A stretch of 64,000 bases of DNA, from NCBI GenBank assembly GCA_025617745.1, contig CM046873.1, positions 27,913,410 to 27,977,409 on the forward strand, in the 5' to 3' direction. Under the pieces are notes generated by a model. It was not told where the DNA came from. It ran no database searches and worked only from the letters and a program-made list of their open reading frames with translations. The DNA is from Heliocidaris erythrogramma. Its lineage: Eukaryota > Echinodermata > Echinoidea > Camarodonta > Echinometridae. Position numbers and translations under genes: made by a program. This document shows positions 4,036 to 60,413 of the stretch, one piece after another. Numbering within the stretch: position 1 is the stretch's first letter; the number at the start of each line of letters is the position of its first letter.

Positions 4036-4671
4036 ATGGCCGAGAAGCAGGAAAAAGAGGAAGTTCCGAGCTCTTTAGAAGGCTTGACTTGTCCACTATG
4101 TCTTGATATCTTCGACGATGCAACCCTCCTGACCTCTTGCGGACACACCTTTTGTCGGAAATGTCTCAAGAAATACGACCTATCCCATCAGGATCTTGAC
4201 CACATGGTCTGCCCTCTCTGTAGGGAAGTCACGAAGTTGTCAGCAAACCGCGTCGATGATCTCCTATCTAATGTGACGGTCAATGGGCTTGTAGACAACT
4301 ACCACGAAAAATGTGGAGGAGCCAATGCCATTCTGGAGATGCGACAGAAATGTAATGTCTGCACAGTGCAGGGGGAAGCTGTCTCTTATTGCAGTACCTG
4401 TGACGCATTTTTGTGTGGAGAATGCTTACTTTCTCATAAACGGCAAACGTTATTCTTTGCAGGTCATGAGATCAATTCCATACAGGATATTACGGAAGGG
4501 AAGGTCAGCATCGGTCATTCTTCAGAGAAGTGCTCGATCCATAAGCAGGAGAACAAAGATATGTTCTGCGATGATTGTAAGGTGCACGTCTGTTTCAAGT
4601 GCGTGATCATCGGCCATCGTGATCACAAGATAAAGTCACATGAGGACTTTGAGAAGGAATTACAGGTTAAG
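4036..4671 (+). CDS. TRIM copy T1, exon 1: RING, B-box 1, B-box 2
   Basis: Predicted N-terminal half of a TRIM-type E3 ubiquitin ligase. The ATG at 4036 is chosen because MAEKQ is conserved in every copy while upstream codons are not. The RING is C3HC4 with ligands C19, C22, C35, H37, C40, C43, C59 and C62. B-box 1 has C106, C109, C119, C122, C127, C130 and nearby histidines. B-box 2 has C166, H169, C178, C181, C186, C189, H194 and H197. The exon ends ...ELQVK at a GTTAGT donor (4672) in phase 0 and joins exon 2 at 6493, giving a 632-residue product. Family knowledge: the RING recruits E2 enzymes and the B-boxes help self-association. Substrate and role are unknown. Confidence 0.9.
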
Positions 4672-5385
4672 GTTAGTCGCCAACATAACATATTGTTTTA
4701 GTTTTACCATACGTCATTCAAGTATGTTACTCGTAAACAAACAGCAGATTTGCATATTATATGTTTTCATATGAGATGTGATAACTAAAAATATTTCACA
4801 CACTCTTTACTATTAACGTTTTTACTGTTTAAAAATAGTAGGGTGAATAATAAACGGTGTAAAGAAATGTGTGAAGAAAGTGATAAATTGAATTCTTGTG
4901 ATACTAATGATTACTACCTAAGCATTATCATCAATGTCGTTATCTTCGCAGGATTTAAACCACAAATAACCAGAATTCCTTTGATATTTGTAAGAGTGTA
5001 GCTTTTGTGATAAATGCATAAAAAAGGAGAAGAAGAAGAAGAAGAGTTGCTTTATCGAGTTAGAATCCTTTGTGGACATAATATTACATATTAAATTATT
5101 GGAACACTAATGCCGGAAGACGAAATACAGCACTGGAACTTTTATTAACTATTAATAATTCTTACACGCTGGTACACTTCAAGCAAGACGAGTTTCACTC
5201 TAAAAAATTTTTCGTTTATAGTTTGTTCTTTGTCGTAATGTACACAACTGATGAAGAAAATAATCAGCATAGTAGTTTAAATTGATTTAATCTAGATTAC
5301 AGCTATGAGTTAGTAAACCCTCCTCTTCCTTTTCTATGACACACTCAGGGCGCTGTTTCACACAGTTCTATGCTGTACTTAAAAG

Positions 5386-5728
5386 CATTGGCGGATCCAG
5401 GGGGGGGGGGGCACAGCCGGCCCGTGCCCCCCCCCCCTTTTGGAAGAGAAGTATGAATTTTTACCATAGGCGATCTGCCATTTTCTCGATTGTGCCCCCC
5501 CCCCCCCTTTTAGAGTGAAGACCTTTTTTTTTTTTTTTTTGCAGGGAATTATGGAGGGAAACTGGACCCCATGACCCCTTACTAAGCGATTTTTGAAGGT
5601 TTGGCGAAAAAAAAAATTTTCTGAGCGACTTTTCGAGAAGCTGGCGAGACCAAAAAAATACGGGTCTACCTTTTCACAAACTTTCATTTTTGTGCCCCCT
5701 CTTTTACTAAATCCTGGATCCGCCCCTG
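5386..5728. mobile_element. hAT-like MITE with 8-bp target duplication
   Basis: Termini are CATTGGCGGATCCAGG and, inverted, CAGGGGCGGATCCAGG. The flanking direct repeat CTTAAAAG at 5378-5385 and 5729-5736 is an 8-bp target duplication. T2 shows the unoccupied site near 14305 (TACTTAAAAAAATATTT) and T4 near 34020. CA...TG ends with 8-bp duplications are diagnostic of the hAT superfamily. It encodes nothing, carries long poly-C/G tracts, and has a truncated relative at 43304-43571. Confidence 0.85.
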
Positions 5729-5780
5729 CTTAAAAGAAATATGTACTGTAACATGTCTCAGTGTTTCATCATGACTGTAG

Positions 5781-6492
5781 CCAGTGGCGTATCTAGGGAT
5801 TATGGCGCCCAGGGCAAACTATAAAATTGCCTCCCCCCCCCCCCCCCCCAACTCAAACCGATCAGCTCAAGAAACAAACAAGGGCCCTGTTTCATAAACT
5901 TTTCTTATAAAAAATAACTGCCCATTTCTATGCCAAATTCGCTCTCAGCCAATCAGATTCAATGATTTCAGTAGCTTACAATAATTAATGTAACTGGTTA
6001 TTGATAACACGTTCTTAAACGGGGCCCCAGATGGAAGTAGTAGTACTTCGAGATAAACACAATTTGATAAGTAACAACAGTAGAAGCATGAAAGCGAGTA
6101 AGCAAATCCATCGTGAGTGACTTTCAGATTTCAACCCTAAAAACACGATTTATGATGTATTTTATCTCTTAGAAAAATCGACAAGGGAGCACAGCAACCG
6201 AGTGTTAGAGTTTCATTCAAAATTTTAACATTAAAAAAGGTAATCTTATACCTTTACTCGGGGCGCAAGATTAAGGATCTGAAAAAATAATTTTTTCGAG
6301 GAATGATGAGTGAGGTGACTGAACATTTTGAATGTTGAATTTTTGAAAATGCTATTTGGGGTTCCAAATCCAAGAAGAACCTGAAACTTATTATGCTAGG
6401 AAACATAGGAACGAGTGTTAGAATTTTTCGAATTTGGTAACCATTTAATGCCATATAACCATTTAACCATCTATGCACTATCTTTTAATTAG
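5781..6492. mobile_element. Left part of an older hAT-like element in the T1 intron
   Basis: Starts with CAGTGGCGTATCTAGG. The same start occurs at 14363 (T2) and 34078 (T4); the matching inverted end is best preserved in T2 at 15271. In T1 the right part is deleted, so the element runs directly into exon 2. The insertion predates duplication of the genes because its traces sit in the same intron position of several copies. Confidence 0.7.
5882..6028. mobile_element. Small MITE nested in the intronic element
   Basis: Bounded by GGGCCCTGTTTCATAAA and an inverted TTAAACGGGGCCC. The core CCAATCAGATTCAATGATTT also appears in the T2 and T4 introns (about 14526 and 34240). A related core is found in an unrelated place at 59020-59050, so this is a dispersed family. 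Confidence 0.6.
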
Positions 6493-7755
6493 GTAAATGA
6501 TCTTGTCCAACGTTGTACAGCCAAGAAATCAGAACTGGAAAAGAACATACAGAATGTGGAGTCACAGCGTAGTGAAGTACACACTGCCATACAGAAACTA
6601 CGGGGAGATGTCAGCCAAGCATATCATACCAAGGCCAAGCAACTAGACGAAAATCAACGTATACTCGTTGAGCAAATGGATGCTCTAGAGCGTAGTTTCG
6701 ATGACGATCTCAACGCTCTGAAATTTAACGACCGCCAGAAGATCAAAAGCATTTGTAGTTCAATGGATTTGGTGGCCAATGACAGACTGGGTGGTCTTGA
6801 GACAGACAGCCTGTCTGCTCACAAGTTGATCTGTGAGGAGCTGGAGGGCATGCTAAAGGAGGTTACCGATGGCACTTCTGCAGCAGCCATAGCAGAGAAA
6901 GCACAGAAGAAGAAATTCCAGTCTGCAGATGATACTTGTCTTGATCTCGGGAACATCATAGAACCAGATCCCGAGTTGAAAGTAATTCAATGTGTAGATC
7001 TACGTGGATACATGATTGGGATGACCAACTACTCTCATGACAGTGTGGCTATTGGATATGGCAATGCATATGGTATAGGTATCATTGATTCAAATGGTAA
7101 ACATCAGCAGTATGCAAACATACCAAGCGGTGTCGAATGTTATGATCTTGTGTTTCAAAGGGATAAGACGCTATGCATATCGACGGGTAATATTGAAGCA
7201 CGCATCTATTCTCCAAATGGATCCAGGAAATCAACCATCATGCATGTGAGCAGTGATAGATCTTATATTCGATTAAGCAGAAGTCCATTAGATGAAATCC
7301 TCGTTACAAACGATGCAAACCACGTCTACATCTATGACCCGACTGGAAGCACACTCAAACACACAGTCCCAACAAAACACAACATCACAAGCCAGGCATA
7401 TGCAACCAAGGCGGGTTTGATCGTCACAAGTTCATGTTACAGCAATCCAAGCATAGTGACTGTCTATGACAGGAATGGGAATGCTGGGAAGCCTCTTCGA
7501 GCTCCACGTGATGTCTACCTGTATGCTACCGTGGACGAGCAGGACAGGGTGTATGTAGCGAGTGTTGATCGTATGAACAGTAACGTGGTGATCAGGCTCT
7601 ATGACCTTGATGGTTTGAACCTGAAGGAGAGATTTCAGTTCAATGCACTGAACCTGAACCCGGATTATATCCCGTATTACCTGGTTTCCCTCTCTCCAGA
7701 ATTACTAGCTTTTGCTTCTGGGTATAAAGTATATTTCATTAAAGTGGTGACGTAA
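6493..7755 (+). CDS. TRIM copy T1, exon 2: coiled coil and propeller-like domain
   Basis: 420 codons, spliced in phase 0 from 4671 and ending at TAA 7753-7755. The first ~140 residues, from VNDLVQRC, are charged and heptad-like (a predicted coiled coil for dimerisation). A short KAQKK linker follows, then about 250 residues with recurring turn motifs IYSPNG, IYDPTG, VYDRNG and LYDLDG, typical of blades of an NHL/WD-like beta-propeller. Such an architecture resembles TRIM56/TRIM2/3/71-type proteins, but no blade count could be verified. Relative to other copies it has one extra codon near STIMHVSS. An ATTAAA at 7875-7880 is a candidate polyadenylation signal. Confidence 0.88.
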   Translation, partial: VNDLVQRCTAKKSELEKNIQNVESQRSEVHTAIQKLRGDVSQAYHTKAKQLDENQRILVEQMDALERSFDDDLNALKFNDRQKIKSICSSMDLVANDRLGGLETDSLSAHKLICEELEGMLKEVTDGTSAAAIAEKAQKKKFQSADDTCLDLGNIIEPDPELKVIQCVDLRGYMIGMTNYSHDSVAIGYGNAYGIGIIDSNGKHQQYANIPSGVECYDLVFQRDKTLCISTGNIEARIYSPNGSRKSTIMHVSSDRSYIRLSRSPLDEILVTNDANHVYIYDPTGSTLKHTVPTKHNITSQAYATKAGLIVTSSCYSNPSIVTVYDRNGNAGKPLRAPRDVYLYATVDEQDRVYVASVDRMNSNVVIRLYDLDGLNLKERFQFNALNLNPDYIPYYLVSLSPELLAFASGYKVYFIKVVT

Positions 7756-8230
7756 ATCCCGATATTTCGGAACTCTCTAGCAATATTATTTTTACGATTC
7801 GTATCGCAATTTATATATATTTTTTTTTAAACTCTAAATGAGAACACGAAAGATGAGCATTGAACATCATAGAAATTAAACTAGCTGGTCCTTTGATAAT
7901 TATTTGTATACTGTATACCGTATACTGTTTTACTGATTCAAACTACATTGAACTATGAATGACATTATGTCACTTAGTGTTAAAGCTTTGCAAATGACTA
8001 TATTCATGAACATTTCCATTTGCATATTCGTTGTAACTCATAATATTGTTGCTAGGTTTAATATGCGGCAAATGCTAACGTGATACAAGGTATTCTGATT
8101 GTCATTATTGTTGTCATTTATTGTTAATTCCAATGGTAATTTGGTTACCTTTACTTTTGCTAATATTGGAGTAATTTGAAGAAACAGATGCCTCTAAAAA
8201 TGAATTGACCTCTTTGAGAATGACTTATTA
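7756..8230. other. T1 3' UTR and proximal flank
   Basis: No gene. This follows the stop codon and is conserved after T2, T4 and T5 but not T3. It contains a candidate polyadenylation signal ATTAAA at 7875-7880 and a short repeated GTATACTGTATACC palindromic patch near 7907-7928. Confidence 0.6.
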
Positions 8231-8235
8231 AAAAT

Positions 8236-8450
8236 CAAAATATGAAGAGAAAGAGAGGGGAGAGAGGGGGCATTAAAAGAGAGATATAGAAAGAGAAGAG
8301 AGGGAATCAAAGAAGGGAATGATAAGAGAGAAAAAGGGTAAATAAAGAAAGAGATTGATAGGAAAGGCGGGGGAATGAGAGAGATGGATGGGGAGAGTGA
8401 GAGTGAGAGAGAATGAGAGAAAGAGAGAGAGAGAGAGAGAAGAAAAGTGT
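8236..8450. repeat. GA-rich microsatellite of the 3' flank
   Basis: Purine-rich (GA)n-like tract. Paralogous tracts occur downstream of T2 (17100-17300), T4 (36640-36850) and T5 (56290-56520), at the same distance from the stop codon. It gives spurious long Ser/Leu-rich frames on the opposite strand. Confidence 0.9.
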
Positions 8451-10194
8451 TTTAGACTCCGTGATAATATGCTGTAGAAAGAATGTATTAACCCTGCAAG
8501 TATAATTCAATGACTGATCTTGAAAGACGTGGGTAGCTTTACAAGAAATTATTATATACAGAAGAGAGATAATCATTTCCAAGACGGATTCGAAAAGTAC
8601 TTATCGCATTATTAATCTAAATAGACATTTTTAAAAAATCTTCATCATTTCTTTGTGAGATGATGATGAAGATGTCATGTATGTAAACCACTGACTTTTA
8701 TCAACGACTTCTGATTCCTCCAGACTATGATATTTACGAATGAAACAAGCGAACATGACACATTTGGTAGAAAAAATATTTGCAAACATAAGAGGATATG
8801 ATGATAATGTCTTATTTTCAACATTGTTTACCGCCACTAAAAAGCGCATCCTGGATGAATGGAACGAATAAATAAATAAATAAAGGGGATATTTTCAGGC
8901 TAAAGTTCATTGATCATGCAACAAAAAGGTGCGATATTAAATACAGTTATTCGTATATTAAATCATTATTATCAGGATTGCACTGTACAGTTACATTATC
9001 GATGTTTTTCATACAGAATGTCTTATTGTGTTAATGAAAGTTCTTAACATTAATTTACTTTTCTACGATATTTAAAACCATGGAAATTCATATGAATGAC
9101 ATGTGTGTTGTTCTTTCCTGTGCATGGCGTGTATTAGCAGCATGGTCTTAACCAGATAATGTTTACTGATACAGTTCATCTGTTCATTTTCTGAGATTTT
9201 GCTTCATATTCAGTCGCCTGGTTTATGCTATGTAGTAAATTATTGTATATATATAGAATGACTGGAAAATTATATACGTCTTTAGGTTTATATTTCGAAT
9301 GAAAACATGATGATAAAAGTATGAACGTGGTATTTTGTAGATGGAAATAAGTATTATACAAGGAACCCTACTTGTACAAATTAGATAAGTTGGTTTTGAA
9401 TGACTTGGGCAGTCTTACGAGAAATGTCCTTACTTATATGAAAACAAATATGATGGTTATTTGCAAGGCGAATAAGGAAATAATTGTATAAAAAGAAAGT
9501 GCATAATCCATGGAAATAACAATCGCATATCATTTAATTGTGTGAGATGCTAATGTGATGCCAATGACCATAATTTGTGTATGGAATATGATCTTGACTT
9601 TTATCCACGAATAGTGATCTATGCGGATTAACATGTTAGTGAATAAAACACAAGTTAAATATTTTGTTTGACAAAAAAGTCAAATGGAGAAAGATAGCTA
9701 TGAAAATGGCCATCGTGTTCAACCTCGTTTTATCAATGAAAGAGCCTGGATAAAATAGATTAATAAAGAATAAAACTTTGAGGCTTAGGGGCTTTGATTA
9801 GTATACAAGATAGGCGCTATAAATAACCAAATATTTTTAATATTATTATCACCATGGTTGCAATTTACAGTTACATTATCGATGTTTGTATATTGTTTTA
9901 TATGTTTTTCATTGTGTTGACGAATGTACGAAATCTTCAATTTCTTTTCTATGATATTTAGAACCGTGGAAAGTCATGATAATGGCATGTGTTGTTCTCT
10001 GCTATGGTGCGTACAAGCAGCAAAGTCTGATGCAGATAGTATTTGCTGGTACAGTTTATTTTCTAAGATTTCACTTCGTATACTGAGTTGTATCATAATG
10101 TAATATAACATGCATAATTATATACATGTTGATTTACCTGATCGTTTAGCCACTATAAAGCTCTGTAGTAAACTTCTTTTTCTCTAAAGAAATC
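8451..10194. repeat. Unit 3' flank with an internal ancient duplication
   Basis: No gene. Two diverged copies of one block follow each other: about 8880-9470 and 9770-10140. Each runs through a TTACATTATCGATGTTT motif, a TATTTA(A/G)AACC(A/G)TGGAAA(T/G)TCAT motif, a TACTGATAC/GCTGGTAC AGTT(C/T)AT motif and a TCACTTCGTATACTGAG-like motif. The whole stretch is repeated after T2 (17460-18990), T4 (41320-42600, after the LINE) and T5 (56630-58240). Confidence 0.6.
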
Positions 10195-10402
10195 TACTAC
10201 TACTACTACTACTACTACTACTATACTACTACTACTACTACTACTACTATACTACTACTACTACTACTACTACTACTGCTACTAATAATAATAATACTAT
10301 ACTAATACTACTACTACTACTATACTACTACTACTGCTGCTGCTGCTGCTACTACTACTACTATTACTTCTACTACTACTATTGCTGCCACTACTACTAC
10401 TA

Positions 10403-11384: not shown

Positions 11385-12690
11385 ATGCTAATAATACTAC
11401 CATATTTCATTATTATGTACATATCCATTAATAATGATGCATGATGATATAGACCAATGTCATATACACTCGTTTCGGAGATGATTTTTTTTCCTTCTTC
11501 ATTTTGCTTTTTTTTTTGGTTATGCGAACAAGAAGCAGAGTATGTTAGCAGAGATACTTGAATAATCATTGTCATATACTATGTAATATGCTGTTATCAG
11601 AGTGTTTTCTTCGTTCATTCAAAATCACGTTTGCGATCTTGACATCTCACATTTACTAGCTATTGAACTTTTAAGGTTAGTCCCTCTATATTTTAAAGCT
11701 ATGCTGCCATTTCAAATCTAATATCCATCTATTTTATAATGGTTACTGACGATGATAATGACAAGATTAACAATGATCACAATGAAGATGATAATAATGA
11801 GGATGAGGAGGAGAAAGAGGATGAGGAAAGCAGAAGAAAGAATTAATGGTAATGTAGACTGTAATAATGATAAATATCAATATTAAAATCTGTTCATAAT
11901 GATATTATCATTCATCTCAAGAATGACATAATGATATTTGCATTTAATATTAAACACTTTTCTAGCTATACCTCAATGGAAGACGACATTGATTACGCTA
12001 ATAAATCTTAGCGGTATATTCTCATGCATGTGTCTTCATGTATTATTCTTTGAATAGTTATTGAAAATGATGACGTGGATGATGATGATAACGAGACTGA
12101 TGTTGGGAATGTATTATTCAGGTCGCTCTTAAGACACCAGTCAGGTTCCTATTCCTTCGCGGCACATATCGACAGTTGCCTCTCTTGACCCAGGTGTAGT
12201 GTTTGAGTACCTGATGATGTGCATTATTTCTTAAAATGTGTCGTGTGTTGGTCATGACTGCAGGAGCTACAGCAATGATTACAATTTAGAGTGTATTTTG
12301 TTTTAGATGAGATAGTGAGTGGGTACCTGATGGGAATTATTTTTCAAGTGTGCCAGGTGTTGGTGATGGCTGCAGAAACTAAAGCCTAGGTTATAATTTG
12401 GGATGGAAATTGTGTAAAATCAGGGCTGTCTAACACAGCATTGCAGTTTATCTGAATTAACATGAACTTCATTCAACTTTGATGACCATTGCAAATACAT
12501 GAATAAGATGTATTTAAGCGATTGTAACTATACCATTATTTGCGATCGATTTGGAATAATCGCAAATCATTTTAAGGCACAGCTCGGATGTTCTAATCCT
12601 AATCCTAATCCTAAGACTTGTGTATTCATGACAAATATGAGTAGTGCTGGCTTTCTTGGGGTATGTGCATGGGCTACCATGGCGTGTTAA
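11385..12690. other. Intergenic repeat block, non-coding
   Basis: No gene. ATG/GAT-rich low-complexity DNA (11745-11850, 12060-12110) is followed by a block (about 12150-12480) that recurs at 27000-27240, 30850-31150, 43570-43880, 59110-59350 and 63380-63850. The block starts at TATCGACAGTTGCCTCTC and includes GTTTGAGTACCTGAT. A few CTAATC repeats occur at 12593-12613. Confidence 0.6.
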
Positions 12691-13185
12691 TTTCTGCCCA
12701 CTGATGTTTAAATTTCGATACACCAAGTCTGAACTTCGAATATACAAAATTCTGGTGCAATATCAAATAAATGCTGAACACGAGAGCGCCAACTCACTGA
12801 AACTTTCCACAACATAGAGGTCGAAGGCACATTAGGTGATCTATGGGAAAACCCACTTCTGTTTAGGGCATTAGTTCATGTACAAAACAGGAAATGACAG
12901 GCAGATTTGTTAACGTCGTCGGTGGGTTGTCACCATTACTGCGGTATCGCGGTATATTGAGGGATAAATCTTTACAGATGAGTAGAGAACTCTTGCAGTT
13001 TGACGTTTTCAAAGGTTTATATTAATGCAGACTTAGTTCAACAGAATCAAACTATCACATATTTGTACCAGCATTCTATAATTATTCTTCTCGTACACAA
13101 CAAACTTCACATCAAAGCGGAATGTAATATTCCAAAAGTTGATTTTCTAGAAGATTCAGTGCAGGGCTGTTTTCTTTACGTGGCT
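12691..13185 (+). promoter_or_regulatory. Type B upstream region of TRIM copy T2
   Basis: Matches the regions before T4 (about 32130-32613) and in the two gene remnants (44371-44931, 59890-60395). Shared motifs include GATACACCA, GCGCCAACTCAC and CAGAATC. It is unlike type A. A candidate UTR acceptor GGCTAG ends at 13187, 19 nt before the ATG, at the same offset as in T1. Confidence 0.5.
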
Positions 13186-13206: not shown

Positions 13207-13842
13207 ATGGCTGAGAAGCAGGAAGAAGAGGAAGCTCAAAACTCTTTACAAGGCTTGACGTGTCCACTATGTCTTGATATCTTCGACGATGCAACCCTCC
13301 TGACCTCATGCCGACACACATTTTGTCGGAAATGTCTCAAGAAATACGACCTATCCCATCAGGATCTTGACCACATGGCCTGCCCTCTCTGTAGGAAAGT
13401 CACGAAGTTGTCAGCAAACCGCGTCGATGATCTCCTATCTAATGTGACGGTCAATGGACTCGTAGACAACTACCACGAAAAATGTGGAGGAGCCAATGCC
13501 ATTCTGGAGATGCGACAGAAATGCAATGTTTGCACAGTGCAGGGGGAAGCTGTCTCTTATTGCAGTACCTGTAACGCATTTTTGTGTGGAGAATGCTTAC
13601 TTTCTCATAAACGGCAAACGTTATTTTTTGCAGGTCATGAGATCAATTCCATACAGGATATTACGGAAGGGAAGATCAGCATCGGTCATTCCTCGGATAA
13701 ATGCTCGATCCATAAACAGGAGAACAAAGATATGTTCTGCGAGGATTGTAAGGTGCACGTCTGTTTCAAGTGCGTGATCATCGGTCATCGTGATCACAAG
13801 ATAAAGTCACATGAGGACTTTGAGAAGGAATTACTTGTTAAG
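13207..13842 (+). CDS. TRIM copy T2, exon 1: RING, B-box 1, B-box 2
   Basis: Same 212-codon structure as T1, donor GTTAGT at 13843 in phase 0. All RING and B-box zinc ligands are present. The residue between RING ligands C35 and H37 is Arg where T1 and T4 have Gly; this is not a ligand. An open frame extends upstream to 13000, but the MAEKQ start at 13207 is the conserved one and the upstream codons are not shared by type A copies. Joined to 15342 the product would be 632 residues, a predicted RING E3 ubiquitin ligase of unknown substrate. Confidence 0.9.
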
Positions 13843-15341: not shown

Positions 15342-16604
15342 GTAAATGATCTTGTCCAACGTTGTTCATCCAAGAAATCAGAACTGGAGAAGAACATACA
15401 GAAGGTGGAGTCACAGCGTAATGAAGTACACACTGCCATACAGAAACTACGGGAAGATGTCAGCCAAGCCTATCGTACCAAGGCCAATCAACTAGACGAA
15501 AATCAACGTATACTCGTTGAGCAAATGGATGCTCTAGAGCGTAGTTTCGATGACGATCTCAACGCTCTGAAATCAAACGACCGCCAGAAGATCAAAAGCA
15601 TTTGCAGTTCGATGGATTTGGTGGCCAATGACAGATTGGGTGGTCTTGAGACAGACAGCCTGTCTGCCCACAAGTTGCTCTGTGAAGAGCTGGAGAGCAT
15701 GCTAAAGGAGGTTACCGATAACACTTCTGCAGCCGCCATAACAAAGAAAGCACAGAAGAAGAGATTCCAGCCTGCAGATTATACTTGTCTTGATCTCGGG
15801 AACATCATAGAACCAGATCCCGAGTTGAAAGTAATTAAATGTGTAGATCTACGTGATCGCATGAGTGTGATGACCAAATACTCTGATGACAGTGTGGCTA
15901 TTGGATATGACAATACATGTGGTATAGATATCATTGATTCAAATGGCAAACAGCAGCAGAATGCAAACATACCACCAAGCGGTACCTCATGTTATAGTCT
16001 TGCGTTTCAAAGAGATAAGACGTTATGCATATCGACGAGTACCACTGAAGCACACATCTATTCTCCAAATGGATCCAGGAAATCAACCATCCATGTGAGC
16101 GGTAATGGATATTTTATTACATTAAGCAGAAGCCCATCAGATGAAATCATCGTTACAAACTCTGCAAAACACGTCTACATCTATGACCCGACGGGACGCA
16201 CACTCAAACACACAGTCCCAACAAAACACCACATCACGAGCCAGGCATATGCAACTAAGGCGGGTTTGATCGTCACAAGTTCATGTTACAGCAATCCAAG
16301 CATAGTGACGGTCTATGACAGGAATGGGAATGCTGGGAAGCCTCTTCAAGCTCCACGCGATGTCTGCCTGTATGCTACCGTGGACGAGCAGGACAGGGTG
16401 TATGTAGCGAGTGTTGATCAGAAGAAACAGAACGTGGTGATCAGGCTCTATGACCTTGATGGTTTGAACCTGAAGGAGATAGTTCACTTCAATGCATTCA
16501 ACCTGGAACTGAATAGTAGTTGGTGTTACCTGGTTTCCCTCTCTCCAAAATTACTAGCTTTTGCATGTGATAAGAAGCTATATTTCATTAAAGTGGTGAT
16601 GTAA
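15342..16604 (+). CDS. TRIM copy T2, exon 2: coiled coil and propeller-like domain
   Basis: 420 codons from acceptor CAG at 15339-15341 to TAA 16602-16604. The coiled-coil part is nearly identical to that of T1 and T4, whereas residues in the first part of the C-terminal domain (for example DRMSVMTKYSDDSVAIGYDNTCG) differ between copies. The block HVYIYDPTG...SQAYATKAG is almost invariant. One codon is added at NIPPSG. A candidate polyadenylation signal ATTAAA is at 16768-16773. The function is inferred from architecture only: target-binding propeller of an E3 ligase. Confidence 0.88.
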   Translation, partial: VNDLVQRCSSKKSELEKNIQKVESQRNEVHTAIQKLREDVSQAYRTKANQLDENQRILVEQMDALERSFDDDLNALKSNDRQKIKSICSSMDLVANDRLGGLETDSLSAHKLLCEELESMLKEVTDNTSAAAITKKAQKKRFQPADYTCLDLGNIIEPDPELKVIKCVDLRDRMSVMTKYSDDSVAIGYDNTCGIDIIDSNGKQQQNANIPPSGTSCYSLAFQRDKTLCISTSTTEAHIYSPNGSRKSTIHVSGNGYFITLSRSPSDEIIVTNSAKHVYIYDPTGRTLKHTVPTKHHITSQAYATKAGLIVTSSCYSNPSIVTVYDRNGNAGKPLQAPRDVCLYATVDEQDRVYVASVDQKKQNVVIRLYDLDGLNLKEIVHFNAFNLELNSSWCYLVSLSPKLLAFACDKKLYFIKVVM

Positions 16605-38556: not shown

Positions 38557-38564
38557 ATAACCGG

Positions 38565-48259: not shown

Positions 48260-48263
48260 TTAA

Positions 48264-48708: not shown

Positions 48709-48712
48709 TTAA

Positions 48713-49136
48713 GCTTTCCCTTGTTGGTGCTCCAGTCAGAGGACATTTCAAAATTTTGGTAATGTAGAAATAGAGAAATATGTTATTCAATACATGTTTA
48801 AAATGCTGAAGAAAAAAAAATTAATGGGTTGAGACTCGGTTATCAGCCAATTAGCATGAAATGCCAAGGTTAACGCAATAATGAAATTTGAAAGTATTTT
48901 CATTATAAAATTTTAAATAATGCCATAAAAGTATTCATTTGTTGTCGTGGTAATGAAGGCAATGTGCAGGGGGGGGGGGGGTGCTAACTGGGATGTATTT
49001 TTTAATCAAAACATATTTTCCCCCTCATGTAGATATTACATATTCTTGAAATACACACCTGTATGCGATGCATTTTGAATTTTGTTCGTACACTCTATAT
49101 GCAAGTGACATGTCATATAATTATGTATCAATGTCG
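48713..49136. other. Upstream segment paralogous to 1165-1540
   Basis: No gene. Shared CAGCCAA, GCTAACTGGGAT and TAGATATTACATATTC motifs with the T1 upstream region. Poly-G at 48970-48981. Confidence 0.6.
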
Positions 49137-49145
49137 ATCTGTGCC

Positions 49146-50037
49146 TAGCCTCTTGACACCCGTCCTGAATTATATATTCATGAGGCACGATTTCTTACTG
49201 AATTATGCATGAAAACGTGAATAGTTAGATAACCGCGGCGATCGCCCAGCAAATTGGCCAATGAAATCTCAAGGATTTCTTACTTCAGTTCTGGACTAGT
49301 CTATTATTTTTGGGGGGATTACGTAAATCTCTTGCTCAAAATACATTCACAGACAAGCACATTATGAAGAATTCGATCTCTAGCTTACAAACCATGGTAA
49401 TTTGAAATAAGACAAATGTACATATTTCTCAAGAGATCATCATATATTTACAAATAATGAAGAATGGCAAGAATCCCCCGGCAAGGCCCCGGGGATCCGT
49501 CTGGCCCTCGCGAAGCAGCAGTCTCACTCTCCATCCCTGGCCCACGGAGGTAATCAGCACAGAGCGGTAGCGCGTGAAAAATAACACTTTTTCCATATCC
49601 AGTAGGCAGATTCACAAAAACATCTTGTCCTTTAAGTGCAGATTTGATTGCATCAACTTGCAAATCTTTGAATCTGTCAATCTTCAACATTCTAGCGACA
49701 TATTCTAAGCTCTTACAAATATCGTCATCACTCGTCGTGGAAGAAACGTTGAACGCCATTTTGGGCTGCGATTAATTAATATGTAAGAAATAGCGTGCAG
49801 TCGAGTCATGAATATTTAACATTACGTCATGGTAGCTCGCGCTTATTGGATGATTTTCACTGACCAAAATTTGGTCGGAATATTCGTAAAAACAATGAAA
49901 TACAAAAGAAATTCAGATCGGGTGTCAAGAGGCCCCGGCGCAAGCGCCTCGGTTTTTCTGGCTCACTTCGCTCACCAGAAATTTTGCCTCCATATCCTCA
50001 AGGATTTCAACAGCGCCAGGGCCTCGACAAGAGGCTA
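49146..50037. mobile_element. 892-bp element with 9-bp duplication carrying a helicase fragment
   Basis: Ends TAGCCTCTTG and inverted CAAGAGGCTA; flanked by ATCTGTGCC (49137-49145, 50038-50046). The empty site is at about 1540-1550 (CGATCTGTGCCTTGC). An inner inverted copy GCCTCTTGACACCCG / CGGGTGTCAAGAGGC joins 49148 to about 49918-49934. The 9-bp duplication suggests a Mutator-like or similar element. It contains the start of a RecQ-like gene on the minus strand. Confidence 0.82.
49448..49759 (-). pseudogene. RecQ-like helicase N-terminal fragment inside a mobile element
   Basis: Starting MAFNVSSTTSDDD, the minus-strand frame reads a RecQ-type motif 0 (IDRFKDLQVDAIKSALKGQD) and Walker A LPTGYGKS, then PLCADYLRG. 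After that the sequence turns Gly/Pro/Arg-rich and no motif Ia, DEAH box or later motif follows. Either the downstream exons are missing or this is a captured first exon. The intact start and open frame to Walker A are notable, but no complete helicase is present. Confidence 0.75.
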
Positions 50038-50046
50038 ATCTGTGCC

Positions 50047-50739
50047 TTGCATCTAATTCATTACATGCTCTGTTAAACTATGAGACTTCACACAGATACA
50101 TCAGTTATCGTATGGATCATTGCCTGTGGGTTTTCAGACATTTTCTTTTCTTTTATGCGCACAAAACTGTCAAACCATAACATGTTAGATTTATTTTTAA
50201 ACCATGCAATTCACCAGTGGTAAAATAGTGTCTGCACTGTAAGACTACCATCATCCCTGTACCACATAGCTGCTCCTCACCAATATTGACACGAGTAGTA
50301 GGTAGCTGGGTTAGGCTTCTGTCAAGACAATGCTTTTCTGATAAAGCGTCAAAAGAAGGTCTGTGCTTGCAGACTAGAGAGAGACGGGAAGACAGACAGA
50401 TGTGAGCAATTGAGAGCAAGGGCCACAGATAGAGAGAGAAAGGGGGGGGGGTGCAGAGAAAGGTATCAAAGAATGATATATCAGCAGGAATGTGTATAAG
50501 CCAAGAAAGAAGACATACAATAAATAAACAGAGTGCGAATTCGACTCGGTATCAAACACACACAAAAATATTGTAGCCTATGCTAGCCTGTTTACCAGTT
50601 CACATTAACTTTAGTAGATAGCCTAAAGTAATTTTGTTGTTCTTTCTATTCATCCGTTATGCCCATGCTTGTTGGAAACATGGTCAATTATTGGTAGAAT
50701 AATAATATTAAAGTTAAACTGCAATCTATTTCCATAATG
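50047..50739 (+). promoter_or_regulatory. Type A upstream region of T5, distal part
   Basis: Matches 1545-1725 and then, from about 50213, 3055-3550; the intervening ~1.3 kb present before T1, including the SINE, is absent. No gene. Confidence 0.5.
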
Positions 50740-51015
50740 AAGCTATCAGTGTATGTGTTGGCTCAGTCAGTAGAGCGTCCGCCTCACAATCGGAGGTCGT
50801 GGGTTCGAAACTCGGCCGCGTCATACCAAAAGACGTTAAAAAATGGGAGTTGCTGCTACCTTGTTTTGCATTCAACAATTGAAGGGATAGAGCAACGTCG
50901 ATTTGGCGCTGCACAGTAGCTGCCGGGCCCACGATCAATTGGGCAAAAAGAAATTCCATTTTTCGGTTAATAACATTTGGAGTGGATTTTAAATTGGATT
51001 ATTATTATTATCTCA
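50740..51015 (+). mobile_element. tRNA-derived SINE with ATT tail
   Basis: The head is tRNA-like: A-box TGGCTCAGTCAGTAGAG (50759-50775), a CCGCCTCACAATCGGAGG anticodon arm and B-box GGTTCGAAACTC (50812-50823). A body of ~180 bp follows and the tail is ATTATTATTATT. Paralogous sites at 3551-3572 (T1) and about 53090-53112 lack it and continue ATGATATCAATATATCTCACAA, so it inserted after the duplications. Confidence 0.85.
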
Positions 51016-51469
51016 CAATCGCCAATAAACTTTTGCATTTTATAAAAAATATCATTTGTGTTGAAAAGCGCCTATACTGTGCAAATTAATTTCATGACTG
51101 GATGAGATCGAGGTCCAAAGTTCGTCAGCGATTAGTGGAGCGAAGGACCCAAAATGTAATTCACGATACACTATGCAATAATATAGTTATGATTGTGATC
51201 GACTATGACGAGTTTTCACCATTTTTTTTTTATCAAACTCTATTTTCGTACACAGTTGGACAGATATAACAGGCCGTGTATTTTGTCATTTGAGATTGAA
51301 CCAGGAAGCAACAGACACAAAATAATCTAATGAAGTGGACTCTACGGCGATACATCAACTTGGTTGAGCCAGTTTCATTGCAGTGACTGTGGATTTATGA
51401 TCGACATGTGATATTCACCTAGCAGGATTATGACCATTCGTGTATGCTAACTGTTTTCTTTCATTTGCT
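51016..51469 (+). promoter_or_regulatory. Type A upstream region of T5, proximal part
   Basis: Close match to 3576-4014. Contains GTATGCTAACTG, a pyrimidine tract and TTTGCTAG (AG 51470-51471), the same candidate UTR acceptor as in T1. Confidence 0.5.
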
Positions 51470-51490: not shown

Positions 51491-52124
51491 ATGGCCGAGA
51501 AGCAGGAAGAAGAGGAAGTTCCGAGCTCTTTACAAGGCTTGACGTGTCCACTATGTCTTGATATCTTCGACGATGCAACCCTCCTGACCTGTTGCGGACA
51601 CCCTTTTGTCGGAAATGTCTCAAGAAATACGACCTATCCCATCAGGATATTGACCACATGTCTGCCCTCTCTGTAGGAAAGTCACGAAGTTGTCAGCAAA
51701 CCGCGTCGATGATCTCCTATCTAATGTGACGGTCAATGGACTCGTAGACAACTACCACGAAAAATGTGGAGGAGCCAATGCCATTCTGGAGATGCGACAG
51801 AAATGCAATGTCTGCACAGTGCAGGGGGAAGCTGTCTCTTATTGCAGTACCTGCAACGCATTTTTGTGTGGAGAATGCTTACTTTCTCATAAACGGCAAA
51901 CGTTATTCTTTGCAGGTCATGAGATCATGTCCATACAGGACATCACGGAAGGGAAGGTCAGCATCGGTCATTCCTCGGAGAAGTGCTCGATCCATAAACA
52001 GGAGAACAAAGATATGTTCTGCGAGGATTGTAAGGTGCACGTCTGTTTCAAGTGCGTGATCATCGGTCATCGTGATCACAAGATAAAGTCACATGAGGAC
52101 TTCGAGAAGGAATTACAGGTTAAG
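51491..52124 (+). pseudogene. TRIM copy T5, exon 1, with two 1-nt deletions
   Basis: Homologous to the 636-nt exon but 634 nt long. One base is missing in GGACACCCTTTTGTCGG (about 51598-51606; T1 has GGACACACC) and another at CCACATGTCTGCCC (about 51657; T1 has ATGGTCTG). The first deletion shifts the frame in the middle of the RING, after H37, so C40, C43, C59 and C62 are not read; the second does not restore the frame. B-box coding from 51690 is intact in another frame and the donor GTTAGT (52125) is kept. Either a recent pseudogene or two sequencing/assembly errors. Confidence 0.85.
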
Positions 52125-54400: not shown

Positions 54401-55822
54401 GTGAATGATCTTGTCCAACGTTGTACAGCCAAGAAATCAAAACTGGAGAAGAACATTCATAATGTGGAGTCGCAGCGTAATGAAGTACACACTGCCATAC
54501 AGAAACTACGGGAAGATGTCAGCCAAGCCTATCGTACCAAGGCCAAGCAACTAGACGAAAATCAACGTATACTCGTTGAGCAAATGGATGCTCTAGAGCG
54601 TAGTTTCGATGACGATCTCAACGCTCTGAAATCAAACGACCGACAGACTATCAAAAGCATTTGTAGTTCGATTGATTTGGTGGCTAATGACAGAGTAGGT
54701 CGTCTTGAGAGGGATAGTCTATCTGCTCACACGTTGCTCTGTGAGGAGCTGGAAGGCATGTTGAAGAAGATTACGGATCAAACTTCTGCAGCCGCCATAA
54801 CAGAGAAAGCACAGAGGAAGAGATTCCAGCCTGCAGATAATACAATCCTTGAGCTCGGAAACATCTTAGAATCAGAAACCGAGCCTCCAAGAAGTGGCAT
54901 GCTGAAGGGAAGTACCGACATGACTGATGATACTTCCGCAACAGCCATAACAGAGAATAAAGCACAGAAGAAGAGAATCCAGCCTGCAGGTGATACTTTT
55001 CTTGATCTTGGGAACATCTCACGACCAGATCCCGAGTTGAAAGTCATTAAATGTGTAGATCTACGTGGGGGAATGAGTGGGATGACCAAATACTCTGATG
55101 AGAGTGTGGCTATTGGATATGCAAGTATATTTCAACAAGGCATAGGTATCATTGATTCATATGGTAATCAGCAGCAGTATACAAACATACCAAGCGGTAC
55201 CGCATGTCATGATCTTGCGTTTCAAAGAGTTGGGACGCTATGCATATCGACGGGTACCACTGAACCACATATCTATTCTCCAAATGGATCCAGGAAATCA
55301 ACCATCCACGTAAGCAGTAATGGATATGATATTAAATTAAGCAGAAGTCCATCAGATGAAATTCTCGTTGCAAACTCTGCAAAACACGTCTACATCTATG
55401 ACCCGACGGGAAGCACACTCAAACACACAGTCCCAACAAAACACAACATCACAGGCCAGGCATATGCAACCAAGGCGGGTTTGATCGTCACAAGTTCATG
55501 TCATCTCAGCAATCCAAGCATGGTGACGGTCTATGACAGGAATGGGAATGCTGGGAAGCCTCTTCAAGCTCCACGTGATGTCTACCTGTATGCTACCGTG
55601 GGCGAGCAGGACAGGGTGTATGTAGCGAGTGTTGATTGTAAGAACAGTAACGTGGTGATCAGGCTCTATGACCTTGATGGTTTGAACCTGAAGGAGATAG
55701 TTCACTTCAATGCATTGAACCTGGAACTGAATTATAGTTGGTGTTACCTGGTTTCCCTCTCTCCAAAATTACTAGCTTTTGCTTGTTATAAGAAACTATA
55801 TTTCATTAAAGTGGTGATGTAA
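54401..55822 (+). CDS. TRIM copy T5, exon 2: coiled coil, duplicated linker, propeller-like domain
   Basis: 473 codons from AG 54399-54400 to TAA 55820-55822, 53 longer than the other copies. The extra part is an in-frame duplication of the linker: a ~47-codon unit starting GML at 54755 is repeated from 54896, giving TSAAAITEKAQRKRFQPADNT and then a diverged TSATAITENKAQKKRIQPAGD. The coiled coil and turn motifs IYSPNG, IYDPTG, VYDRNG and LYDLDG are intact. Because exon 1 is frameshifted, this exon is probably expressed only if exon 1's indels are errors or an alternative start is used. ATTAAA at 55966-55971. Confidence 0.85.
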   Translation: MNDLVQRCTAKKSKLEKNIHNVESQRNEVHTAIQKLREDVSQAYRTKAKQLDENQRILVEQMDALERSFDDDLNALKSNDRQTIKSICSSIDLVANDRVGRLERDSLSAHTLLCEELEGMLKKITDQTSAAAITEKAQRKRFQPADNTILELGNILESETEPPRSGMLKGSTDMTDDTSATAITENKAQKKRIQPAGDTFLDLGNISRPDPELKVIKCVDLRGGMSGMTKYSDESVAIGYASIFQQGIGIIDSYGNQQQYTNIPSGTACHDLAFQRVGTLCISTGTTEPHIYSPNGSRKSTIHVSSNGYDIKLSRSPSDEILVANSAKHVYIYDPTGSTLKHTVPTKHNITGQAYATKAGLIVTSSCHLSNPSMVTVYDRNGNAGKPLQAPRDVYLYATVGEQDRVYVASVDCKNSNVVIRLYDLDGLNLKEIVHFNALNLELNYSWCYLVSLSPKLLAFACYKKLYFIKVVM

Positions 55823-58800
55823 ATCCCGATATTTCGGAACTTTCTAGCATATATCCTTTATATTTACGATAAGTGAATTATTTTTGTATAAATATTTCTT
55901 GGGTAAATTATATAATTCTAATCAAAATAACAACACGAAAGATGAACATGAACATCAGTATAGAAATTAAATGTTGTATACCGTATACTGTATACCGTTT
56001 TACTGATTTAAACTATGAATGACACGTTGTCACTCAGTGTAAAAGCTTTGCAAATCGCTCTATTCATGAACAATTTTGTATGCATATTCGTTTTAATTCA
56101 TAATATTGATGCTAGATTTATTATGCGGCGAATGCTAACGTGATACGATGTATTCCGATTTTCATTATTGTTGTCATTTTAATCCCACTGCTTTTGGTTA
56201 GTTTTACCATTGCTAAGCTTGGAGTAATTTGAAGAATCAGATGCCTTTAGAAATAGATTGACCTTTTTAAAATTGACTTTTAAAAAAATAAAATATGAAG
56301 AGAAAGAGAGGGAGAGAGAGGAGGGGCATGAAAAAAGAGAGATAGAAAGAGAAGAGAGGGAAAAGAAGGAAAGAAACAGAGAGAAACGGGGTAAAGAAAG
56401 AAAGAGGATAGGAAGGTCTGGGTGGGATAAGAGAGAGATAGAGATAGAGAGAGAGAGATAGAGATAGAGAGAGAGAGAAAGAGAGAGAGAGATAGAGAGA
56501 GAAAGAGAGAGAAGAAGAAAAAAAGAAAAGTGTTTTTAATAGATGTACTGTAGAAAGAACCCTGCAAGTATGATGCAATAACGGATTAGAAAAATACATA
56601 TTGCATTATTAACCTAAATTGATTTCTTTAAGAAATCTTCATCATTTCTCTGTGAAGATGATGATGATGATGATGTCATGTATGCAAATCACTGACTTTT
56701 ATCAACAATTTCGGATTCCTCTATGGCTATGATGTTTATGAATGAAACAAATGAATACGAAATATGTGTTATAAAAATATTTGCAGACATATCAGAGGAT
56801 ATCGATGATGATAATGGTTTTTATTTTGAACATTGTTTACCTCCACTATCAAGGGCATCCTGGATAAATTGAACGAATAAATAAATGATTAAAGAGGATA
56901 ATTTTCAGGCTGAAGTCTATTGATCATGCCATAAAAAGGCGTTCTCTATAAAACAGTTATTCGTATATTAAATCATTGTCATCATGATTACAGTGTACGG
57001 TTACATTATAGATGTTTTTTGTACAGAATGTCTTAAAAAGTTTCAGTGAAATTTTGAAACATTTAGTTACTTTTCTACCATATTTAAAACAAGGGAACTT
57101 CATGTGAATGGCATGCGTTTTGTTCTCAGCGGTGTATTAGCAGCAAGGTCTGAACCAAATAATGTTTATTGATACCGTTCATTTTCTTAAATTTTACTTC
57201 ACACTGAGTTGCCTTGTTTCTGCTATGCCGTAAATATTGTACATATAAAATGACTAGAAAAAAGTAATACTTCTTTAGGTTAATATTTCGAATAAAAACA
57301 AGACGAAAAGAAAGAGGGAGAGAAGAAGTCAGAGGAGAGAGAGAGAGAGAGAGAGATGAGATGATAAAAGTGTGAACGTGATATTCTCTAAATGGAAATA
57401 ATTATTATACAAGGAACCCCACTTAATTGTACAAATTAGAAAAAAAATGGTATTGAATGACTTGGGCAGTCTCACGAGAAATGCCCTTTTTACTTATATG
57501 AAAATAAAAATGATGGTCATTTACAAGGCGAATAAGGAAATATATAAAAATTGCATAATCGATATAAATAACAATCGTTATCATTTATTTTTGAGATGCT
57601 AATGTGATGCTAATGACCATTATTTATGTAAACAGTATGATCTTAAATTTTATCCACGAATATTAATCTATGCGGATTAACACGTTAGTGAATAAAACAC
57701 ACATCAAATATTTTGTTTGAAGAAAGAGAGATAATGTCAAACGGAGAAAGATAGCTATGATAATGTCTCTTATGTTCAACCTTGTTTTTATCAATGAAAG
57801 AGCCTCCCTGGATAAACAGAAAGATGAATAGATGAATAAGAAGATAACTTTGAGGCTACAGGGCTTTGATCAGTACATGTAACAAGAAAGGCACTATGTA
57901 AAAACAGTTATTCTAATATCATTACTATCATGATTGCAGTTTAGAGTTACATAATCGATGTTTGTCATCATGATACAGAATGTTTTATATTGTGTTGATG
58001 GAAGTACGAAATATTTAATTACTTTTCTGTGATATTTAGAACCGCCGTGGAAATTCATAAGAATGGCATGCGTGTTGTTCTCCGCAACAGGTTATAGAAG
58101 CAAAGTCTGATCCAGATAATGTTTACTGGTACAGTTCATTTCCTAAAATTTCAATTCATATACTGAGCCGTATAAAATGTATCTATGCATGTACTGCATT
58201 AATGATTTAGCTGATTATCTAGCCACAGTAAAGCTCTGTGGTAAAGGTTTTTTTTAATAATAAAATCTACTACAGCTATACTACTACTACTACTACTACT
58301 ACTACTGCTACGAAATACTACTACAATATTTCATTAGTATGTACACATCTACATGATCTAAATCATGTTTGTCAATAATAATTTATGATGTTATAGAGCA
58401 ATGTCATATACACTTATTTCAGAGATGATTATTTTTCTTTTTTCTTTTCTTTTTCTTTTAGAAAGTTGTGCGAAAAGCAAGCACAGTATGTTATGTTATG
58501 CTATACTATGCTGCCATTTCAAATCTAATATCCATCTGTTTTATGATGGTTACTTATACTGAGCAGAAGGAGGAGGAGGAGGAAAAAGAAGATCTGCTGA
58601 TAACGATACTATTATTACTTTTGTTAATACACTGTATTATTCATCTTGCAAATAATAATGATATGGGCATAATCGGACACTTTTATAATATTTAACGACA
58701 CACTATTAAATCTTAAGCGGTGTATTCTCATAAATGTGTCTTCAGGCTTATCCTTTGAAAAGATATTGAATTGATGCATATTGATAACGATGACGTGGAT

Positions 58801-58880
58801 GGTAAGAATGATAAGAACGATGGGAATGATGACGGGAATGTCATTCAGGTTTCTAATTCCTTCAGGGCACATAATTATCG
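55823..58880. repeat. 3' flank of T5
   Basis: No gene. Same order as after T2 and T4: ATTAAA, GTATACCGTATACTG patch, GA-rich tract (56290-56520), AT-rich duplicated block (56630-58240), GA patch (57310-57358), CTA patch (58268-58312), GGAGGAGGAGGA tract (58568-58582), GAT-rich DNA. Confidence 0.65.
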
Positions 58881-58921
58881 ACAAGTTTCTCTCTCGACCA
58901 GGTGCAGGGTTTGAATACCTG

Positions 58922-59106
58922 GGAAGCGTCCCTCTTTTTGCAACCCAGCTGAGGTGTGGGTTCTCCTCACAGAAGAAGATCTGGGGAGCGTTTTGTCAGT
59001 GATTTTTACTGACAAATTTGCTCTCAACCAATCAGATGCAAGGGTTTCAGTAGCTTATAACAGTTCTCGGTAAAAATCACTGACAAAACACTTGATGAAA
59101 CATTCC
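58922..59106. mobile_element. MITE with the CAATCAGAT core
   Basis: Interrupts the common block between GAATACCTG and CCTGATGACGG. Contains GGGGAGCGTTTTGTCAGTGA and inverted TCACTGACAAAACACTTGATG, and the CCAATCAGAT...GTTTCAGTAGCTTA core shared with the intronic GGGCCC MITE. CCTG occurs at both borders (58918-58921, 59107-59110), a possible short duplication. Limits approximate. Confidence 0.6.
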
Positions 59107-59889
59107 CCTGATGACGGACATTATTTGTTAAATGTGTTGTGTGATGTTCATGGCGGCAGGAGCTACAGCCATGATTACAATTTAGAGTGTATTTTATTTT
59201 AAATGAGATAGTGAGTTGATACCTAAGGGGAATTATTTATTCAAGTGTACCGGTTGTTGGTGATGGTTGTAGAAGCTAAAGCTTAGGTTATAATTTGGGA
59301 TGGAAAATTGTGTAAAATCAGGGCTGTCTCATAGAGCATTGCAATTGATCTGAATTAACAACAACTTCATTCACATTTGATCGCAATGGCAAATACATGG
59401 ATGTGCATAGGGGGTGTCCTAACTAAACTATCGATCGAATTATTTGCGATCGATTTAGATTAATGGCAACTCATTTTAAGTTCCCAACCTTATTTCACCC
59501 CCTTACTAATGATACATATTATAATATGTATATTCATGACAAATACGAGTTTAGAGTTCGGACGAATAGTCTACTATGAGCCTTTGCCGCCCCAGAAAAA
59601 AGCAATAAAGCTAACCAATCAATTTAGTACTAGCGGTTCTTCTGTTTGCATGAAAATTGAAGTTCCAAAACTTCACTTTTCTTTCACCTATTATTTGCAT
59701 CATTGTTTACGTTGCATTTCATGTATTATTCTATTTACTTTCTTCTTCTTCTTCTTTTTTTTTTTTGGGGGGGGGGGGGGGGGGCAGGGGAACGGGGGCA
59801 TCGTTCTCCTGCAGTTCAGCTCACCGTAGTGTTGGCTTTCTTGGGGGCATGTGGGGCTACCTGCCTCATGGCATTTTAATTTTGCTCAC
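59107..59889. other. Intergenic repeat block, non-coding
   Basis: No gene. Close to 43620-44370. CTTCTTCTTCTT and G-run tract at 59743-59784. Confidence 0.6.
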
Positions 59890-60413
59890 TGCTGTTTAAA
59901 TTTGGATACACCACTTTTGAAATACTAAACATAATAGCGCCAACTCACAAAAATGTCCACATTGAGAACGAGGTCAAATGTACATCAGGCGAGCTCTGGG
60001 GAAAACCACCTCTATTCAAAGCGCATATTATTAGTTCATGCACAATGCAGAAAATAGCATGCAGATTTGAATAACACAGATGTTACTATAGTCACCATTA
60101 TTGCCTCATGTACATGATGTATTGAGTTAACAGGACTTGTGCGTAAAGAACTCGTTGTGGCGTATTCAATGATCAATATCAATATGGACTCGGGTAAACA
60201 GAATCCGACACCGCAAGTTTAATCTCGCGAAATACGGAGACAAGGTATCTGTGGTAGTGTTCTTCTTGCACGCAACAAACCTCACAGCAAAGCAGAGTCA
60301 GTGTTATATTAGAAAAGTTGAGTTCTATAAGATTCTTTGCAAGGCTGTTTTATTTATTTGCTGGAAATTCGCACACGCACTACCACACTGCATCCATGGC
60401 CGAGAAGCAGGAA
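59890..60413 (+). pseudogene. Remnant TRIM unit: type B upstream region plus first codons
   Basis: Type B upstream sequence runs to an ATG at 60396 and the codons MAEKQED, the start of TRIM exon 1. It then jumps to 3'-flank sequence (TTATTATGTACATCATG). The rest of exon 1, the intron and exon 2 are missing, so this is a gene deletion remnant. Unlike the other copies, the acceptor equivalent TTTGCTGG is mutated (AG lost). Confidence 0.85.

Follow-up and report, generated by a model that had tools for sequence, protein, structure and literature searches.

The DNA analysed here, hereafter the window, is a 64,000-nucleotide stretch of the genome of the sea urchin Heliocidaris erythrogramma (C21:27913410-27977409), which carries part of a tandem array of TRIM genes. 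The most likely reading is that their products are diversifying recognition-type E3 ubiquitin ligases, TRIM proteins in which the RING and B-box part is conserved and one face of a predicted C-terminal propeller changes under positive selection. The anatomy of the genes, their upstream classes, a recurrent deletion breakpoint, the discordance between exon and upstream trees, the selection signal and the predicted fold were all computed. Mapping covered 264 kb (the window, 120 kb of upstream flank and 80 kb of downstream flank), and genome searches covered the 1.06-Gb assembly (26 contigs). A Bindin match in this assembly (E 2e-68), with none in 14 control genomes that need not be animals, agrees with a sea urchin source, Bindin being a sea urchin family. 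Outside the window, gene copies other than T6-T9 carry the prefix g- and deleted-B modules the prefix d, each with a number giving the approximate position in kb in window coordinates.

Comparison of the window with itself revealed five copies of a two-exon TRIM gene, all on the plus strand, with ATGs at 4036, 13207, 22338, 32635 and 51491 (T1–T5). This bore out the five same-orientation copies of a preliminary description; four of them are intact and T5 is frameshifted. Exon 1 encodes a RING and two B-box stretches and is joined in phase 0, across a GT...AG intron, to exon 2, which encodes a coiled coil and the propeller. Exon 1 measures 636 nt in T1–T4 (4036-4671, 13207-13842, 22338-22973 and 32635-33270), and together with exon 2 (6493-7755, 15342-16604, 23637-24899 and 34870-36132) it gives open reading frames of 632 aa each. 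Exon 1 of T5 (51491-52124) is two bases short in its RING part and has lost the frame, which may reflect a true deletion or an assembly error; exon 2 of T5 (54401-55822) is still open and 159 nt longer through an internal partial duplication. The array extends over ~180 kb (about -82 kb to +100 kb in window coordinates) and, on the module map of the 264 kb, contains 14 gene copies and six deleted B starts. Both exons are open in 10/14 copies, the broken ones being g-81, T5, T7 and T8. T9 is an outlier copy (74-75% identical), the donor of which was unmatched by the splice-donor pattern used.

Of the exon 1 copies, T1, T3 and T4 were scanned, and in all three the Pfam RING models and the B-box model (PF00643, two stretches) exceeded their cut-offs. 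In exon 2, a helix (2-99) was predicted at the position of the coiled coil, with low confidence over much of its length. No B30.2/SPRY Pfam match was obtained in exon 2 of T1, T2, T3 and T5, nor any filamin match in the scanned exons; one propeller family reached 3e-4 in T2 exon 2, far under its cut-off. The T4 protein was the input of two structure predictions. The exon-2 model, built from five window sequences, was weak (predicted local distance difference test, pLDDT, 60.5), and the model of the propeller alone gave a pLDDT of 81.5 and a predicted template modelling (TM) score of 0.84. Read together, the two contain 24 strands, equating to six blades of four, some strands being short. The first eight places in a Foldseek search were taken by Brat-NHL and TRIM2-NHL (TM 0.70-0.79, 12-14% identity). 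These results predict a six-bladed NHL-like fold for the C-terminal domain, which is assigned to T1 via its similarity to T4. In such a propeller the top face is made up of the B-C and D-A loops. NHL domains are described as binding RNA on the top surface and proteins on either face (PMC8251876, PMC9070667).

Relatives of the array occur elsewhere in the genome. The exon-2 search returned at least 126 matches among those listed (100 scored of 486 candidates), including at least 42 full-length exon-2 matches at 64% identity or more. Array sites among the matches listed were C21:27.9, C21:10.5-10.9, C8:29.8 and C6:11.9-12.1 Mb, plus single places, and the matches listed also included fragments and sequences with stops. 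A second, distant cluster lies at C2:66.3-68.9 Mb, with open frames of ~490-690 aa that are 24-33% identical to exon 2.

Pairwise ratios of nonsynonymous to synonymous substitution rates (dN/dS) were 0.17-0.36 for exon 1 (T1-T4) and 0.49-1.26 for the propeller (T1-T5). Codon site models (GY94, M1a vs M2a, FastTree topology) were fitted to three sets of copies. For the array containing the window, exon 2 was tested without g-81, T8 and T9 (11/14 copies) and exon 1 without T5, T7, T8 and T9 (10/14). Its propeller gave twice the log-likelihood difference (2dlnL) of 86.4, with an omega of 4.5 at 13% of sites, and neither exon 1 (tested for RING/B-box selection in this array only) nor the coiled coil showed any gain (2dlnL about 0). 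The propeller of the C6 array (15 full-length exons) gave a 2dlnL of 177, with an omega of 6.8 at 14% of sites, and no selection signal was present in its coiled coil (2dlnL 0). In a third set, combining C21:10.5 Mb and C8 (13 exons, 12 distinct), the propeller reached a 2dlnL of 235, with an omega of 13 at 9% of sites. Two further checks covered the first two sets: each third of the propeller on its own tree gave 41.9, 36.7 and 19.3 in the first array and 26.8, 66.2 and 60.3 in C6, and without gap-flanking columns the 2dlnL was 70.3 and 127.3, respectively.

The selected sites (posterior over 0.8) were concentrated on one loop face, which comprises 73-74 of 257-259 positions. In the first array, 17/18 sites lay in the B-C/D-A loops of one face, with 12/12 loops touched (hypergeometric p 2e-9). 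The same loop face held 19/28 sites in C6 (10/12 loops touched, p 6e-6; one further selected site has no counterpart in T4), and 17/21 sites of the third set were found on one loop face (p 3e-7). Eight selected positions recurred in all three sets. When gap-flanking columns were dropped, 12/13 and 11/18 sites fell on the face in the better model and 11/13 and 11/18 in the first model (p 3e-7 and 4e-4). A tree-free ratio of nonsynonymous to synonymous differences (pN/pS) was 1.23 (first array) and 1.71 (C6) on the selected face, compared with 0.54 and 0.33 in other loops and 0.53 and 0.67 in strands. Selected positions of the first two sets were rich in Tyr, Trp, Ser, Asn and Phe, and in C6 also in Cys. 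The summed frequency of Lys and Arg was 0.11 at selected vs 0.10 at other positions; Arg alone was higher at selected sites of the first array (0.086 vs 0.036). RNA binding through a basic face is not favoured, given the lack of a Lys+Arg excess at selected sites of these two sets.

Upstream DNA was found to fall into two classes. Identity over the final 500 bp before the genes was 0.72-0.89 between A copies, 0.73 between B copies (T2/T4) and 0.39-0.48 between A and B, and a tree of 12/14 array copies (T8 and T9 left out) separated A from B with a support of 100/100. The division made in the preliminary description, with A before T1, T3 and T5 and B before T2, T4 and both remnants, was therefore upheld, as upstream regions clustered by A/B class and the self-comparison of the window displayed the copies. 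Class A DNA precedes T1 (3054-4005; homology to the T5 upstream begins near 1054), T3 (21649-22310, the most divergent A) and T5 (48157-51460, with inserts), and class B DNA precedes T2 (12190-13166) and T4 (30884-32606) and starts again at 63610-63992 before T6, the next gene beyond the window; all are on the plus strand. T8 matched the B profile at E 4e-80, and T9 was placed in class A on two grounds, a weak match to the profile (E 7e-5) and, at a distance of 2 kb, a 70% fragment. At the sensitivity used, the A upstream DNA of T1 had 10 genome matches, all inside the array. The B upstream DNA of T2 had 19, 18 of which were in the array and one of which was an inverted relative at C21:27.66 Mb. 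TATAAA occurs at -435 to -450 in 5/7 class A copies. A pyrimidine stretch plus AG is located ~30 bp before the ATG, at the boundary, in A and B copies, and may be a 3' splice site; none was seen in several relatives elsewhere.

Gene bodies did not follow these classes in the comparison of exon and upstream phylogenies. A clade of A genes was rejected for exon 1 (approximately unbiased test, p 2e-60, 12 copies), the coiled coil (p 0.009) and the propeller (p 0.007, 11 copies each). Cross-class pairs were g-45 (A) with T2 (B) in the propeller (100/99) and g-61 (B) with g-45 (A) in exon 1 (99/98). This conflict with the upstream split shows that coding parts were exchanged while the upstream DNA stayed apart. 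Neighbouring genes were earlier described as encoding nearly identical proteins; this fits the RING/B-box exon better than it fits the propeller, in which T1 and T2 differ at a dN of 0.119 vs a dS of 0.094. The first B-box segment exists in at least three variants within an otherwise similar exon 1 (T4 vs T1 and T2; also g-61 and g-45), which suggests exchange of short blocks.

Among array copies, the A and B upstream profiles converged on a single site, with weak E-values of 0.02-1.4. Of 11 upstreams of relatives outside the array, six were matched by the B profile, from 1e-65 (C21:27.66 Mb) to 0.02. The best match of the A profile was to a C6 relative (0.0006); it also hit another relative (0.05) and, elsewhere in the sequence, a third (0.13). 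These E-values refer to small search sets, and the upstream stretches of relatives were placed from B-box positions and B-upstream genome matches. We rejected the idea that A and B are wholly unrelated cassettes, since the profiles find a common element, also upstream of C6/C8 relatives. In B, the core of this element resembles TGAGATCGAGGTCAAAG, and a version of TGGGAAAACCCA comes after it. Genes carrying the palindrome GGGAAAACCC are g-61, T2 (12845-12854), T4 (32304-32313), two C6 genes and two C8 genes, and the C21:27.66 Mb relative has the variant GGGAATACCC in its place; T1 carries the remainder of the element (3660-3702, plus strand) without the palindrome. GGGAAAACCC was not found within 900 bp in any of the seven A copies or in T9, and R2 alone among the six deleted-B modules has a near form. 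By chance, a 900-bp stretch would contain exact GGGAAAACCC in 0.1% of cases and the looser GGGWWWWCCM in 4%. We take the palindrome to fit the Rel/Dorsal consensus. The distribution of element and palindrome among relatives indicates that B is probably the older upstream type and A derived, and we hypothesise that B genes might be regulated by Rel factors.

Traces of a common element set in otherwise different DNA leave room for A and B genes to be under different control, as they may be. The competing account, that the two classes are mere by-products of duplication, equally expressed and functionally meaningless, stands only a little short of an even chance. Both classes retain the common element traces, and the palindrome is missing within 900 bp from 3/6 live B genes (g-70, T6, T8) and from 6/11 relatives elsewhere, even with the near form counted as present; these absences also weigh against the main interpretation. 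What this account does not readily accommodate is the persistence of two classes beside exchanged coding regions and the recurrence of TATAAA at a similar distance in most class A copies.

Conserved RING and B-boxes, a coiled coil that is flat in 2/3 sets and mostly one-sided, recurrent selection in the propeller together point to ligases that keep their catalysis and change their targets. The RING part, conserved along with the B-boxes, would supply ligase activity and the coiled coil, by analogy with other TRIM proteins, would dimerise the protein. The modelled six-bladed NHL-like propeller would hold the target by one face, and this face diversifies under positive selection at the same positions in separate arrays. 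Copies arose via duplication of modular units, with coding parts exchanged between them. Two upstream types persist, B being partly common to arrays elsewhere and A having traces of the element without the Rel/NF-kB-like palindrome. Because coding parts are exchanged between copies, either upstream type can precede a given propeller type. Ligase activity, target binding by the face and pathogen targets are what we infer from this pattern. The immune role raised in the preliminary description was conjectural and stays so, with added support from the one-sided diversifying selection.

Several observations weigh against this interpretation. No Pfam NHL match was obtained at E 0.1 in exon 2 of T1, T2, T3 and T5, and sequence-profile searches of the PDB found no NHL or other TRIM propeller. 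The site models were custom-written rather than taken from PAML, branch lengths were rescaled only, and recombination can inflate such tests. The coiled coil of the third set gave a marginal 2dlnL of 7.6, which blurs an otherwise clean contrast with the propeller. In C6, 8/28 selected sites are in strands and one is on the other face, and three sites of the third set are in strands and one is on the other face. Full length was the criterion by which the C6, C21:10.5 and C8 exons were chosen, and fragments with stops also exist. Finally, class A matches the common element weakly, the best E-value being 0.0006, from small searches.

In a bolder form of the ligase interpretation, which we regard as tentative and rather doubtful, sea urchins would carry in their germline a set of intracellular E3 ligases whose propeller face, with all 12 of its loops under selection in the first array, acts like a paratope. 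These would be placed behind inducible promoters (an ancestral Rel-type site) and differently expressed ones lacking that site. Exchange puts faces behind two promoter kinds, so that recognition and regulation would combine freely. The Tyr/Ser/Trp/Asn-rich palette of the selected sites presumably resembles that of antibody loops.

The same palette, which is not basic overall in the two sets examined, would fit protein or glycan partners as well as pathogens. The face might diversify through endogenous partners (gamete, self-recognition or developmental), conflict or subfunctionalisation, which we consider unlikely: the many lineage-local copies, the exchange between them and the positions recurring in three sets resemble host-pathogen families, and TRIM genes are reported to rise in sea urchin immune cells after ultraviolet B (UVB) exposure (PMC13043383), though those genes may not be the present ones. 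That the selection signal stems chiefly from recombination, relaxed constraint or pseudogenes is improbable. In its favour, exchange between copies is clear, 4/14 array copies are broken, and T5 and T7, with a broken exon 1, were among the 11 exon-2 copies tested. Against it, the coiled coil of the same exon is flat in 2/3 sets, each third on its own tree stays positive in two sets, relaxed constraint predicts ~1 on all surfaces rather than the observed 1.2-1.7 on one face and 0.3-0.7 elsewhere, and the 15 C6 and 13 C21:10.5/C8 exons are open, though picked as full-length matches.

Studies of sea urchin immunity stress the TLR, SRCR, NLR and SpTransformer families, the last of which is, to our knowledge, a different protein family with no TRIM domains. 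The sea urchin SpTransformer (Sp185/333) arrays nonetheless share with the present one a clustering of genes, segmental duplication and GA repeats next to the genes (PMC8634487). For Strongylocentrotus purpuratus, 140 annotated TRIMs are reported (PMC13043383). In finTRIMs of teleosts and primate TRIM5alpha, large duplicated TRIM sets show positive selection in B30.2 loops (PMC2657112). The likeness to the present genes is that M1a/M2a positive selection is concentrated in loops of a C-terminal recognition domain in both; the differences are that theirs is B30.2/SPRY, whereas here an NHL-like propeller is predicted and there are two coding exons, and that some finTRIM sites beside the RING are selected, whereas none were in exon 1 here. 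The predicted C-terminal fold is shared with the TRIM-NHL proteins Brat, TRIM2, TRIM3 and TRIM71. The C-terminal region of TRIM56 is described as resembling NHL but lacking clear repeats (PMC2533329). The same source reports non-SPRY (group 1) TRIMs as 1:1 between human and mouse, whereas the present genes are amplified and diversifying and lack a Pfam NHL match. Fungal NWD/HNWD NLRs of the HET-E kind (PMC4986451) also combine a propeller interaction surface under positive selection with exchange between members, but they carry a NACHT domain and WD40 repeats, and it is repeat units that are shuffled, whilst the present copies are whole-domain paralogues. No study of propeller-face selection in sea urchin TRIMs was found in the literature searched, which covered few subscription journals and no preprints. 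If the ligase interpretation is true, the part played by B30.2 in vertebrates has here been taken by an NHL-like propeller, and the array offers defined loops for binding, along with natural pairs in which similar RING/B-box exons stand behind the two kinds of upstream DNA.

Deleted-B modules accompany the live genes. R1 (43606-44926, plus strand) is B upstream DNA ending before the gene, its junction not preserved, and R2 (59107-60414, plus strand) comprises B upstream DNA and 19 nt of exon 1 from the ATG (60396-60414), after which it runs into spacer DNA. The R2 junction recurs in d-52 and d-12, and in d-37 and d77 with further one-sided deletion, so that 5/6 modules have the same breakpoint, most simply explained by one old deletion that was later duplicated. 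Independent deletion of R1 and R2 was rejected, as the R2 breakpoint is common to four other modules; R1 is included by inference, its junction being lost. The two deleted copies noted earlier are thus both B remnants and probably not separate losses but examples of one recurrent module (R1 by context). An A gene follows 5/6 deleted-B modules, with its ATG 6.5-17 kb on. R2 is the exception: after it come what are probably the remains of a lost A unit (61352-62597, plus strand, where 61352-61454 is like the far upstream DNA of T5 and 61757-62597 is downstream DNA) and then T6 (B). A further B-upstream fragment lies between T3 and T4 (27001-27577, plus strand), followed by the tail of a downstream module (27837-28020). 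R1 contains a ~200-bp inverted-repeat insert (44588-44787) that by eye resembles a miniature inverted-repeat transposable element.

With b denoting a deleted start, the 20 units read ABBbAbAbABABbAbBbABA. All tests of this order were post hoc, made after it was seen. The lack of any A-A adjacency arose in 1.1% of 20,000 shuffles (3.3% without the weakly classed T9), and b followed by A in 5/6 cases arose in 1.8% (0.9% without T9). Without the b units, live A genes adjoin each other, and B-B runs occur, which rule out a strict A+B repeat. The ancestral A+B pair proposed in the preliminary description survives in a loose form only, in which A units do not touch when b is counted.

Intergenic DNA consists of downstream (D) and spacer (S) modules, interrupted by a fragment of a long interspersed nuclear element (LINE), satellites and small elements. 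The D module at 16605-19055 (plus strand) has other copies at 7756-10249, 36133-37049 with 41313-42623, and 55823-58242, and is mostly missing after T3. The S module at 11386-12180 (plus strand) recurs at 19131-19917, 42694-43268, 44943-45250, 58314-58850, 60415-61136 and 62963-63396, with pieces before T4. Directly after T3, 24995-26573 holds 5.4 copies of a 289-bp unit (98% alike) whose minus strand resembles a stretch of tRNA (GGTTCGAATCCC), so that the unit may be tRNA-derived; an ARAGORN scan called no tRNA, the 289-bp repeat included, and an Rfam scan found no match. A 1,044-bp palindrome (28019-29062) is 90% self-complementary and lies near a 269-bp direct duplication (26728-26996 / 27579-27847, 97%). 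LINE fragments at 37023-41190, within the downstream module of T4, gave a reverse transcriptase match at 8e-13 and an endonuclease match at merely 0.004, under cut-off, and are accompanied by GC-rich 11-bp tandem repeats. GA microsatellites occupy a similar position downstream of T1, T2, T4 and T5 (8393-8440, 17238-17293, 36779-36842 and 56430-56512), comparable to the GA repeats described at the edges of SpTransformer duplications (PMC8634487).

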